Source: Bacteroidota bacterium
GTDB lineage: Bacteria > Bacteroidota > Bacteroidia > Chitinophagales > Chitinophagaceae
Direction of reading: 5' to 3'
DNA: 32,589 bases
Assembly (NCBI GenBank): GCA_028876495.1
Contig: JAGWRO010000073.1
Coordinates: 1 to 32,589 of the forward strand
The notes below the pieces were generated by a model that was given only the letters and a program-made list of their open reading frames with translations, did not search any database and was not told the origin of the DNA. Positions within the stretch are counted from its first letter, which is position 1. Each line of letters opens with the position of its first letter. Below, piece after piece: positions 7,066 through 10,151 of the stretch. Made by a program: the position numbers and the translations under genes.

Positions 7066-7512
7066 TTATTCTGATTTTACAAAATTGCCATTGGCATCAA
7101 AGATTTTATCTTTGCCATTGATCTCTACTTCATAAGATGTTTTTCCCTGTGCATCCAACACTTTTCCAACATCTCCAAATTTAGCGTGTTTATAATTTTG
7201 TTTTATATAATTGCCCGCAGATTTTGGAAGTTGACTTACAGGAATTTCTTTTACAATTTCTACGAATGTACCTGAAGGAGTGTATGTGACTGAATTCGCT
7301 TCCCCGTCTTTACCTCCCCAGTTGGCTTCATAATTACCTTTTTCAGTTTCCCAGGTAATGTGATATTTATTTGATTCGGGATACTTTTTCATATTGGCTT
7401 TTTTTACAACTGCAGGAACGCTAATAGGTGCATTGCCCCCTTCATTTTCCTGTGCGAACGTTATGCTGATTACTGCAAATAATATCGCGGTTAAACCTAC
7501 AATCTTTTTCAT
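7066..7512 (-). CDS. PepSY-like periplasmic protein
   Basis: The 148-aa product has a signal peptide (MKKIVGLTAILFAVISITFA, cleaved before QEN). It is followed by a repeated pattern seen in the PepSY-like family (PF11396, once called putative beta-lactamase-inhibitor-like): two stretches of the form xxYxVEI/YHITWE around aromatic and glycine residues, with FDANGNFVKSE at the end. Such proteins are small secreted proteins common in Bacteroidota with no established biochemical role. It is encoded on the same strand as the efflux operon, with a 141-bp gap containing the inverted-repeat element, so co-transcription is possible but not shown. A -7-like TAAGTTTG lies 40 bp upstream of the start. 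Confidence 0.82.
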   Translation of the reverse strand: MKKIVGLTAILFAVISITFAQENEGGNAPISVPAVVKKANMKKYPESNKYHITWETEKGNYEANWGGKDGEANSVTYTPSGTFVEIVKEIPVSQLPKSAGNYIKQNYKHAKFGDVGKVLDAQGKTSYEVEINGKDKIFDANGNFVKSE

Positions 7513-7728: not shown

Positions 7729-8097
7729 ATGTTGCTTCAATTATTAAGAGTAAAAATTCAACAACTTATCGTAACCGAAAGTTCGGAAAGTTATCCCGGA
7801 AGTATTGCCCTTCCTGATGATCTGCTGGAAGCTTCGGGTTTAAAATTATTTGAACAGGTTCATATAAATAATCTTACCAACGGAAACAGGATTGTTACTT
7901 ATGTGGTAAGAAGCAACAAGCCCGGTTATGTATCTCTGAATGGCGCAGCATCTAAATTGTTTAATAAGGGCGACAAGATCCACGTGCTTGCTTTTGGTTA
8001 TTTTAATGACCAGGAAGAGGCTCCGGATTTTGAGCCTACCATTGTGTATGCTGATAAAGAGAACAAACTGATCGAAGCAAAAAATTATACTTTTTAG
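7729..8097 (+). CDS. panD: aspartate 1-decarboxylase (pyruvoyl-dependent)
   Basis: PanD converts L-aspartate to beta-alanine for pantothenate and coenzyme A. From the ATG at 7729 (122 aa) the numbering matches E. coli PanD. Lys9 is present, and Gly24-Ser25 lies in YPGSIALP, the self-cleavage site that yields the pyruvoyl group. Arg54, Thr57 and Tyr58 are in NRIVTYVV, and the Asn of SLNGAAS is present, one position earlier than in E. coli. The longer frame from a TTG at 7696 would add 11 residues, shift these positions and overlap the likely -7 box, so I reject it. The C-terminal third is more diverged than usual. The next gene follows after 12 bp, suggesting one transcript. Confidence 0.88.
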   Translation: MLLQLLRVKIQQLIVTESSESYPGSIALPDDLLEASGLKLFEQVHINNLTNGNRIVTYVVRSNKPGYVSLNGAASKLFNKGDKIHVLAFGYFNDQEEAPDFEPTIVYADKENKLIEAKNYTF

Positions 8098-8109
8098 AAC
8101 CAATTTGAA

Positions 8110-9180
8110 TTGAAAAATGTAATCAGAAGATTAAGTAACTGGCAGCATTGGCCTTTTTTCCCATTTTACTTCCCTTTGTTTTTTGTATGGTCTTGGTATA
8201 TGCTGAAAAGCCGCGCTATTTGGTTCTTCAGTACTTCCAATCCTACCCTCACTTTTGGGGGTTTTGAAGGCGAAAGTAAAAAAGAGATGTACGACCTGCT
8301 TCCGGAAAAATATTTTCCAAAAACCATTTACATCAGCCCGCAACAAACATTTGACCAAGTGCTGGAGAAGGTTCGCTCCGGTTCTTTCTCCTACCCTTTT
8401 ATTGTAAAGCCTGATGTGGGAATGGAAGGAATCCTTTTCAGGAAAATCGATAATGAACAACACCTTGAAACTTATCACCGCAATATGCCGGCTCAATACA
8501 TAATCCAGGATTTTGTTGATTATCCCATGGAGATCGGGGTCTTCTATTATCGTCATCCAACAAATAATTCAGGAGTTATTACGGCATTATTCTCCAAAAA
8601 ATTACCACTAATTAAAGGCGATGGCTTTTCAACGATAAAAGAAATAGTAGAAGAAGAACAGCCTGAAATAGCAGAAGAATTATTAAAACTGGAGGAAAGT
8701 GAATTAGGTAGAGTTTTGAAAAAAGAGGAGATCATTAATTTATCGTTTATAGGTAACCGTTATCATGGCGCCACCTTTCATGATTTATCGGAGCATATAG
8801 ACGAAACACTGATGGAACTTTTTGATAGGATCAGTCATGATAGCCGGTTTTATTACGGACGGTATGATATCAAATGTTCTTCAATCGAAGATCTTAAAAA
8901 AGGAATCAACTTTTCCATTCTTGAATTTAACGGGGCCGGCTCTATTCCCAATCATATTTACACCGGCAGGCATTCTCTGATAGAAGCTTATAAAGAAATT
9001 TGCAAACACTGGAAAGTACTCTATGAAATAAGTGCCTATAATCGCCGGGAAGGTTTAGCCTATTGGAATACATTGAAAGGGTATAGATATTTGCGCAAGG
9101 CCAATAAACACTTTAGGGTTTTAAAAAAATGTGACAGTCTTATCCTTCTAAAAAACAAAAAAATTTCCACCAATCCCTAA
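8110..9180 (+). CDS. ATP-grasp superfamily protein of unknown substrate
   Basis: This 356-aa protein appears to start at TTG (8110). The next in-frame ATG would remove the aromatic N-terminal segment (about residues 11-40), which I recall as shared by relatives. That segment is followed by GGFEGESKKEMYDLLP. Residues near 97-103 (YPFIVKPDVG) look like the ATP-binding lysine strand of ATP-grasp enzymes. Further on, IIQDFVDYPMEIGVFYY and FSILEFNGAGSIPNHIY resemble the hinge and the metal-binding E-x-N region. ATP-grasp enzymes ligate a carboxylate to an amine or thiol through an acyl-phosphate. The substrate here is unknown; the link to panD, 12 bp upstream, is suggestive only. It converges with the PAP2 gene with 8 bp between stops. 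Confidence 0.75.
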   Translation: MKNVIRRLSNWQHWPFFPFYFPLFFVWSWYMLKSRAIWFFSTSNPTLTFGGFEGESKKEMYDLLPEKYFPKTIYISPQQTFDQVLEKVRSGSFSYPFIVKPDVGMEGILFRKIDNEQHLETYHRNMPAQYIIQDFVDYPMEIGVFYYRHPTNNSGVITALFSKKLPLIKGDGFSTIKEIVEEEQPEIAEELLKLEESELGRVLKKEEIINLSFIGNRYHGATFHDLSEHIDETLMELFDRISHDSRFYYGRYDIKCSSIEDLKKGINFSILEFNGAGSIPNHIYTGRHSLIEAYKEICKHWKVLYEISAYNRREGLAYWNTLKGYRYLRKANKHFRVLKKCDSLILLKNKKISTNP

Positions 9181-9188
9181 AAAAAATC

Positions 9189-10151
9189 CTATTTCCTGAA
9201 AGTATAAACCAGCCCCGGTTCATAATGACCCAGGTTATATTGAAGATGAAAAGAAATCGTGTTCCGTGGCTTTGCTGACGCTGATGTTTTTGCAAAACGA
9301 TGGTAGTTGTTTAGAATATTTTTTCCGGTTAAATAGCCTAACGCCGCACCCACAAATACATCAGTTGTCCAGTGCACATTCTCAGTAACCCTGCTTATTC
9401 CAATCAATGAAGCAACCGTATATACCAAAACAGGAATCACAGGTTTGTCTCTGTATTCAGACGCAAAAACAGTTGCAACAGCAAAAGCCACCGTTGTATG
9501 CCCTGAAGGAAAAGAACTGTATGTTTTTTTTCCATTGGCGTCTCTCTCTGCCTTGGTAAAAGGCCCCAAAAACCGTGGTGAAGCTACCTGGTCAGGCCTG
9601 TAATAAGAAGGTCGTGTTTCCCCGGTAAGAAATTTGACAACCGTAACGACAGTAGCTCCTGTAACATAAGCCTGGGAAGCTAAAAGAGTGGTGGTTACCA
9701 TTTTTTTATTATCAAAAATCAACCCATAGCCCGCCAGCCCCACTAGTGCAAATCCTTCATACACTCCCCCTAAATCAGTAACATAATGACTGATGTTTTT
9801 TACAGAAGTGCTCCTTTCAAGCAGTTTGAGTGCTTCCTGCTGAATGGGTTTATCCACCAGGAAGAGCGTCCCGGTTCCTGCAGCAAAAATTCCTAAATTT
9901 TTCCAATCTGTTCCACTCATATGAAACGGTTTGGTAAACTCCTGCTTTAAACTGTTTTGTAATAATAAGAGATACATTTTGGGTTTTAATAGTGATTTTT
10001 CATGAGAGCATGAAGAATTAACAGGATCACCCGCACTATCTTTTTTCAGGCAAAACCTGCCGGGTTTATTTACAAGCGTGTCCTGTGAAAATGCGGCAAA
10101 GTTGACAAAAAGCATCGACAGGATTAACACCCATATTTTTCGGAGTTTCAT
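9189..10151 (-). CDS. PAP2-family lipid phosphatase
   Basis: The 320-aa protein has a signal peptide (cleavage near FSQ, residue 23) and several hydrophobic helices. All three phosphatase motifs are present: KFLTGETRP (Lys173 to Arg180-Pro181), PSGH (215-218) and SRVTENVHWTTD (Ser253-Arg254, His260, Asp264). His218 and His260 would be the acid/base and the nucleophile. Members remove phosphate from membrane lipids such as undecaprenyl diphosphate or phosphatidic acid on the periplasmic side. The N-terminal region of about 70 residues beyond the signal peptide contains three cysteines and is less conserved. Which lipid is used cannot be told from sequence. It is transcribed alone, toward the ATP-grasp gene. 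Confidence 0.9.
   Translation of the reverse strand: MKLRKIWVLILSMLFVNFAAFSQDTLVNKPGRFCLKKDSAGDPVNSSCSHEKSLLKPKMYLLLLQNSLKQEFTKPFHMSGTDWKNLGIFAAGTGTLFLVDKPIQQEALKLLERSTSVKNISHYVTDLGGVYEGFALVGLAGYGLIFDNKKMVTTTLLASQAYVTGATVVTVVKFLTGETRPSYYRPDQVASPRFLGPFTKAERDANGKKTYSSFPSGHTTVAFAVATVFASEYRDKPVIPVLVYTVASLIGISRVTENVHWTTDVFVGAALGYLTGKNILNNYHRFAKTSASAKPRNTISFHLQYNLGHYEPGLVYTFRK

Follow-up and report, generated by a model that had tools for sequence, protein, structure and literature searches.

A divergent PanD paralogue paired with an ATP-grasp ligase in Bacteroidota: a possible two-gene unit for a beta-alanine conjugate

Described decarboxylases and ligases closest to the locus

Aspartate 1-decarboxylase (PanD; PF02261, TIGR00223) is the described enzyme nearest to the first gene considered here, and we take Lys9 to be one of its functional residues. 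Cleavage at Gly24-Ser25, the need for Thr57, and the roles of Ser25 and Tyr58 are documented in the available excerpt of PMC4410942. In the portion of PMC6969166 that concerns PanD from M. tuberculosis, Arg54 hydrogen-bonds a ligand carboxylate that overlies the gamma-carboxyl group of the analogue isoasparagine. The window, the whole 32,589-nucleotide stretch of DNA analyzed, is contig C61 of a 4.70 Mb draft genome in 99 contigs, and it encodes a PanD paralogue, PanD2. PanD2 resembles PanD in length, family, predicted self-cleavage site, and the cleavage and substrate-binding residues checked, but differs in its score against TIGR00223, at four fixed positions, and in a C-terminal tail.

The second gene encodes an ATP-grasp amino-acid-ligase-like protein. 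Two described enzymes frame its possible chemistry: D-Ala-D-Ala ligase (Ddl) ligates an amino acid through an acyl phosphate, and carnosine synthase is an ATP-grasp enzyme that joins beta-alanine and histidine. The latter would carry out the same kind of reaction as that proposed for the window ligase; it is absent from the best 50 Foldseek matches listed and from the 17 matches of the profile search. The best profile and fold matches are instead the G (ATP-grasp) domains of the cyanophycin synthetases CphA1 and CphA2, which have the Mg-ligand loop in common with the window ligase. The PDB chains of these enzymes are 629-910 aa long; the window ligase has 356 aa with no match to the Mur-ligase domain that marks cyanophycin synthetase, an N-terminal hydrophobic segment of its own, and P280 in place of Arg458. 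Glutathione synthetase GshAB and D-Ala-D-Ala ligase also have the fold in common with it, at 11-18% identity in the matches listed. In CphA1, Gly456 helps to hold the oxyanion, Arg458 contacts the incoming aspartate at its alpha-carboxylate, and Arg309 is essential, according to the available part of PMC9427784.

The window ligase also belongs to the same tree as a LysE-linked ATP-grasp family, whose other members often neighbor a LysE or Fe-S gene rather than PanD2 and nearly all carry E/D279 where the PanD2-linked ligases have I/V279. Among the literature matches listed (titles and the starts of abstracts), no paper was found on a PanD/ATP-grasp pair or on the LysE-linked ATP-grasp proteins of Bacteroidota. 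A loose precedent for linkage between ATP-grasp and exporter genes comes from the excerpted text of PMC4010436, in which a Pantoea cluster contains a transporter placed with LysE together with carB, labeled ATP-grasp, and the cluster of another strain contains an ATP-grasp/glutathione-synthase gene with an MFS transporter; the same excerpt mentions no decarboxylase.

The features of the locus are collected in Table 1. Our proposal, to which we give about an even chance, is that the two genes form an operon for a beta-alanine conjugate, in which PanD2 supplies beta-alanine to an amide-forming ligase.

Table 1. Coordinates of the gene pair, its internal features, and its neighbors in the window
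Feature	Position	Strand	Basis
PepSY-like gene, just under Pfam cut-off	7066-7512	opposite to pair	
PanD2, divergent paralogue of aspartate 1-decarboxylase, 122 aa (ATG 7729, stop 8095-8097)	7729..8097	+	PF02261 match
Gly24-Ser25, predicted self-cleavage site of PanD2	7798-7803	+	
Intergenic gap, PanD2 to ATP-grasp, 12 bp	8098..8109	+	
ATP-grasp amino-acid-ligase-like protein, 356 aa (TTG 8110, stop 9178-9180)	8110..9180	+	profile search, AlphaFold2, Foldseek
Aromatic hydrophobic helix, codons 14-32 of ATP-grasp, possible membrane-surface anchor	8149..8205	+	interface transfer sum
Presumed Mg ligands E272/N274 and loop G-A-G-S-I279-P-N-H, codons 272-282	8923..8955	+	
I279 codon	8944-8946	+	
PAP2 gene	9189-10151	opposite to pair	

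PanD2 and the gene pair

The window PanD2 matches PF02261 at 109.6 bits (cut-off 25) over profile positions 1-114 of 115. Against the NCBIfam equivalog TIGR00223 it scores 86.1 bits, under the cut-off of 106, and four further PanD2 proteins score 84.6 to 94.1, so that all five PanD2 proteins scored fall below it; the two canonical PanDs of the same genome pass at 158.7 and 166.5. Identity of the window PanD2 to these two proteins is 38 and 33%. An alignment of 10 PanD2 rows with 26 canonical rows, the latter being those from retrieved loci and not a random sample, shows K9, Y22, G24, S25, R54, T57, Y58, and N71 to be identical throughout. The same alignment reveals changes fixed in PanD2 relative to the canonical rows (H11Q, R12Q/E, T27A/G, and D29P) and a C-terminal tail, E-x-K-x-Y-x-F, that is absent from canonical PanD; its residues E116, K118, Y120, and F122 are invariant in all 10 PanD2 rows. 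Since the residues checked are identical in every row while nearby positions have changed, PanD2 resembles a functional pyruvoyl enzyme whose active-site surround has been altered. Judged by sequence, it is a subfamily distinct from canonical PanD.

The source genome contains three PanD genes, on contigs C99 (165 bits) and C22 (163 bits) and in the window (109 bits), and one copy each of panB and panC, both on contig C58. An arrangement with panB or panC adjoining panD is therefore not found in this draft assembly, and none of the window's ORFs as read is panC; an earlier note on this DNA had remarked that PanC is not nearby and had suggested looking for panB and panC elsewhere, and both points are borne out. 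The two canonical copies rule out PanD2 as the genome's only panD. Given these copies together with panB and panC elsewhere, beta-alanine for pantothenate is already provided for, and the window PanD2 is an addition and not the main vitamin enzyme of the genome.

PanD2 is narrowly distributed. A profile of six PanD2 proteins, which included the sequences of two of the high scorers themselves (the window genome and G064), gave scores of 181-242 bits in five of 394 genomes of the same family, with the next best at 100. Match counts indicate one or more additional PanDs in every one of the five, although in G064, G353, and G039 the canonical nature of the second one is inferred solely from the number of matches. 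At E 1e-40, no PanD2 was found outside the family: hits came from 3 of 298 genomes in the order sample, all of them family members, and from a single genome of 295 in the class sample, the source genome itself. Both samples include family members, and the genomes truly outside the family are fewer than these totals. A wider spread is thus ruled out in the order and class samples at this threshold.

An ATP-grasp gene lies downstream of PanD2 on the same strand in 8 of 10 distinct PanD2 loci. The spacing is 10-14 bp in five of the eight, and the genes overlap by 4 or 11 bp in the other three. Flanking genes differ among G064, G353, L039, and L098; those in G353 are a dGTPase-like gene and a gene for an RNA-binding protein (names read from the sequences). 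Near relatives are present among the eight, namely the window with L036 and L037 with L038; the latter two have flanks in common, and some flanks of L037 also occur in the window. No third gene or exporter common to the linked loci was seen in the retrieved flanks, which in L036 and L038 end right after the ligase. The two genes have dN/dS values of 0.04 to 0.14 between close relatives; comparison of the window pair with a close relative gives 0.08 and 0.11, indicating purifying selection on both. The window itself has no LysE match, which removes LysE as a candidate part of this unit, and both neighbors of the pair are on the opposite strand.

Elsewhere in the window, just behind the first gene, a 7-bp unit (consensus CAGCATC, 92% matches) is repeated about 19 times at positions 1326-1460; the array is open in several frames and is probably non-coding. 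A gene at 24171-24929 matches the mpaB/rubber oxygenase catalytic domain, PF09995 (35 bits versus 23).

The two remaining PanD2 loci, in G267 and G039, contain no ATP-grasp gene within the 10 kb retrieved around each. A decayed ligase was considered and rejected, since tblastn of these 10-kb loci returned chance matches only, at E 5 or more. The ATP-grasp relatives retrieved from the two genomes carry E279, and PanD2 there must therefore have a use on its own. These lone copies are the main evidence against an obligatory pathway. The earlier note had asked whether the pair is conserved in other genomes; it is, in eight loci, most with different flanks, but the coupling fails in two of the 10.

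The lone copies also bear on the likeliest of the alternatives, in which PanD2 is an extra source of beta-alanine for pantothenate and the ATP-grasp gene is on a common transcript but serves a different pathway. This account fits the retention of the catalytic residues checked, the occurrence of PanD2 without a ligase in G267 and G039, and the presence of panC and panB in the genome. It fits less well with a genome that already has two canonical panDs, with the recurrence of the same two genes in eight loci, overlapping in three, despite differing flanks, and with the fixed substitutions and C-terminal tail of PanD2. We consider it unlikely.

The ligase, its putative acceptor loop, and its family

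The TTG start of the ligase is plausible: the L098 homologue has its ATG at the corresponding residue, and no further in-frame ATG is available before codon 31, which already lies within a conserved segment. Pfam and NCBIfam return only sub-threshold matches to the protein: 11.8 bits against a gathering score of 21 for RimK, 15.4 against 23.2 for ATP-grasp_3, and 20.4 against a cut-off of 850 for cyanophycin synthetase TIGR02068. Its assignment comes from a profile search and from the predicted fold. A profile built from 51 relatives and searched against PDB sequences gives 17 matches, with cyanophycin synthetase 2 (7ta5) at E 2.6e-9 and cyanophycin synthetase 1 and GshAB among the others. The AlphaFold2 model has a mean pLDDT of 90.4, and the best 50 Foldseek matches listed are all ATP-grasp ligases by name, with TM-scores to the query of about 0.35 to 0.55. 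These include cyanophycin synthetases, GshAB, ArgX/LysX, and D-Ala-D-Ala or D-Ala-D-lactate ligases; among the matches listed, the nearest folds are CphA1/CphA2, GshAB, ArgX/LysX, and Ddl. By virtue of the PDB profile match and the predicted fold, and not of any library cut-off, the window protein is a member of the ATP-grasp superfamily. The earlier note's description of a panD gene followed after 12 bp by an ATP-grasp-like gene with a TTG start thus agrees with the exact coordinates, the profile match, and the modeled fold.

K100, R148, R251, D253, E272, N274, and H282 are invariant in all 51 aligned ligases, and D253, E272, and N274 are presumed by analogy to be Mg ligands. Near the N-terminus, residues 14-32 are strongly aromatic, with an interface transfer sum of -14.0 for 19 residues and a mean Kyte-Doolittle value of 1.03. 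The feature is common to the family: the mean interface sum over residues 13-42 is -13.0 (51 rows), as compared to +5.7 for random 30-mers of the remainder. The AlphaFold2 model has a helix at residues 16-34. Because the Kyte-Doolittle mean is only 1.03, this segment possibly fits a surface anchor better than a spanning helix.

The loop that follows E272 and N274 distinguishes the PanD2-linked ligases. In all eight it reads G-A-G-S-[IV]-P-N-H, whereas at position 279 the 149 other sequences have E (144), D (2), or G (1), with two unreadable; I/V is thus found in 8/8 linked ligases and 0/147 readable others. These 157 distinct sequences derive from 203 frames after merging of identical cores and removal of matches shorter than 200 residues, and they cover 80 of 119 confirmed loci plus the best-scoring part of the 394-genome sample rather than every member. 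In the profile alignment, loop 272-282 aligns to CphA1 residues 450-460, and position 279 therefore lies between the equivalents of Gly456 and Arg458. The counterpart of Arg458 is P280, nearly invariant across the whole ligase family, so the acceptor carboxylate must be held otherwise than in CphA1. R148 pairs with an arginine in CphA2 (7ta5) that we equate with Arg309 of CphA1, a residue that precedes the aligned part of CphA1 (from 313 onward). Such a pattern at 279 is what a switch of acceptor amino acid would be expected to leave. Clade and residue count as one event, since the eight linked ligases form a single clade, and counting does not separate the two.

That clade is evident in a tree of 110 of the 112 distinct rows (quick search without bootstrap; L066_10115 and L106_4938 left out as cut-off copies), where it has an SH-aLRT support of 100. 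The partner label requires one change on the tree versus an average of 7.8 for shuffled labels. One of the linked ligases, L098, has a long branch and odd composition. The window ligase falls within the LysE-linked family, whose aligned members without PanD2 are 33-54% identical to it. None of the members tested against Pfam reaches the cut-off of an ATP-grasp model. Relatives are present in 53 of 117 family genomes at E 1e-3 and in 211 of 394 at E 1e-30; in a sample of the class they are found in 24 of 99 genomes, counting the source genome. Over the 112 rows, a LysE-type gene lies within 300 bp on the same strand or is fused in 52 (36 + 15 + 1), a divergent CCG Fe-S gene is the neighbor in 65 (36 + 29), PanD in 8, and none of these in 23. 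LysE adjoins 0/8 PanD2-linked ligases versus 52/104 of the other rows, in a set where some loci stop close to the ligase. Since half of the rows lack it, LysE does not define the family. Both kinds of ligase can coexist. Behind the second copy of the source genome, on C9 (L146, 141000-150000), come a gene judged YceI-like from its resemblance to L045 and then a LysE gene, and this copy is divergent from a CCG Fe-S gene; Paracnuella aquatica N24 likewise carries both kinds (L092, L098). The earlier note held that finding the ATP-grasp gene mostly without panD would count against its reading. This is the case for the family as a whole, in which 149 of 157 have no adjoining panD, but not for the window clade, in which 8 of 8 adjoin.

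Several other arrangements were observed in the family. L034:1498-3195 is a single frame of 566 residues that opens with a LysE domain and closes with the ATP-grasp domain, which suggests that the parental ligases work together with export. Of eight long ATP-grasp frames inspected as candidate LysE fusions, it is the only one; L230-L233, from a distant ATP-grasp branch, have a TANGO2 match in their N-terminal part, and L234-L236 are separate LysE and ATP-grasp frames. At L052:8867-10658, the ATP-grasp gene lies directly behind a TANGO2 gene. Six loci (L110:2338-6133, L094, L095, L099, L103, and L115) have ATP-grasp followed by YqcI/YcgG and DUF1989 genes, with an amino-acid permease gene also behind ATP-grasp in L110 and L115; these look like a separate small metabolite cluster.

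A proposed route to a beta-alanine conjugate

In the proposed mechanism, PanD2 would self-cleave at Gly24-Ser25, form a pyruvoyl group, and decarboxylate aspartate to beta-alanine, as its conserved residues suggest. The ATP-grasp enzyme, probably translated from a transcript shared with PanD2 and predicted to sit at the membrane, would activate a carboxylate with ATP as an acyl phosphate. The amine of beta-alanine would then attack this intermediate to form an amide bond, as the fold and catalytic residues suggest; attack of a partner's amine on activated beta-alanine is less likely. The ancestry of the ligase appears to lie in a family with frequent links to a LysE-type exporter, and the acceptor pocket of the ligase may have changed, from an acidic residue at 279 to I/V, upon joining PanD2; the correlation is observed, and the association with PanD2 is its putative cause. 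The use of beta-alanine by the ligase is a step that we infer from the gene pair and the pocket. The suggestion in the earlier note that the pair makes a beta-alanine amide or peptide accordingly stands in part: the extra PanD copy, the conserved unit, and the likeness to amino-acid ligases favor it, and the ligase's use of beta-alanine is the putative part.

The order of the two reactions could also be reversed, or the substrate might not be free aspartate: an aspartyl amide made by the ligase, or some other acidic amino acid, would then be what PanD2 decarboxylates. The departures of PanD2 from the canonical sequence at positions 11 and 12, close to K9 (10/10 rows), are in keeping with this possibility, as are the scores of all five PanD2 proteins below the panD equivalog cut-off and the handling of aspartyl substrates by the best fold matches, CphA1/CphA2. 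However, the PanD pocket is small. R54 is also kept in 10/10 PanD2 rows, as expected for free aspartate from the M. tuberculosis enzyme (available part of PMC6969166), and we regard this alternative as rather unlikely. It is very unlikely that the ligase instead modifies a protein in the manner of RimK, acting on the PanD2 C-terminal tail or on another protein, and that PanD2 is a target or regulator and not a supplier. In favor are the RimK- and LysX-type entries among the weak profile matches and the fold matches, and the four invariant tail positions of PanD2. Against it, the tail is also kept in the two PanD2 proteins without a ligase (L118, L120), and a small molecule is suggested by the LysE-type exporter that often adjoins the parental family and, in L034, forms one frame with it.

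The two-gene operon for a beta-alanine conjugate admits a bolder extension, which we hold to be quite improbable. A membrane-bound non-ribosomal ligase would place beta-alanine on a membrane-held carboxylate or amine, with a purpose-built PanD as its supplier, and would represent one branch of a large unnamed Bacteroidota ligase family whose other branches make other amino-acid conjugates for LysE-type export. If so, a beta-alanyl lipid or a short beta-alanine oligomer would be a candidate product of a new class of metabolites.

An automatic pipeline could mistake PanD2 for a vitamin gene. The PanD2 pair uncouples the making of beta-alanine from vitamin B5 in a bacterium and suggests an undescribed compound derived from beta-alanine. 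Following the pair has also drawn attention to a broad family of ATP-grasp proteins, often found beside a LysE-type exporter and without a name in the Pfam copy searched, for which the two-gene unit provides a testable clue to substrate.
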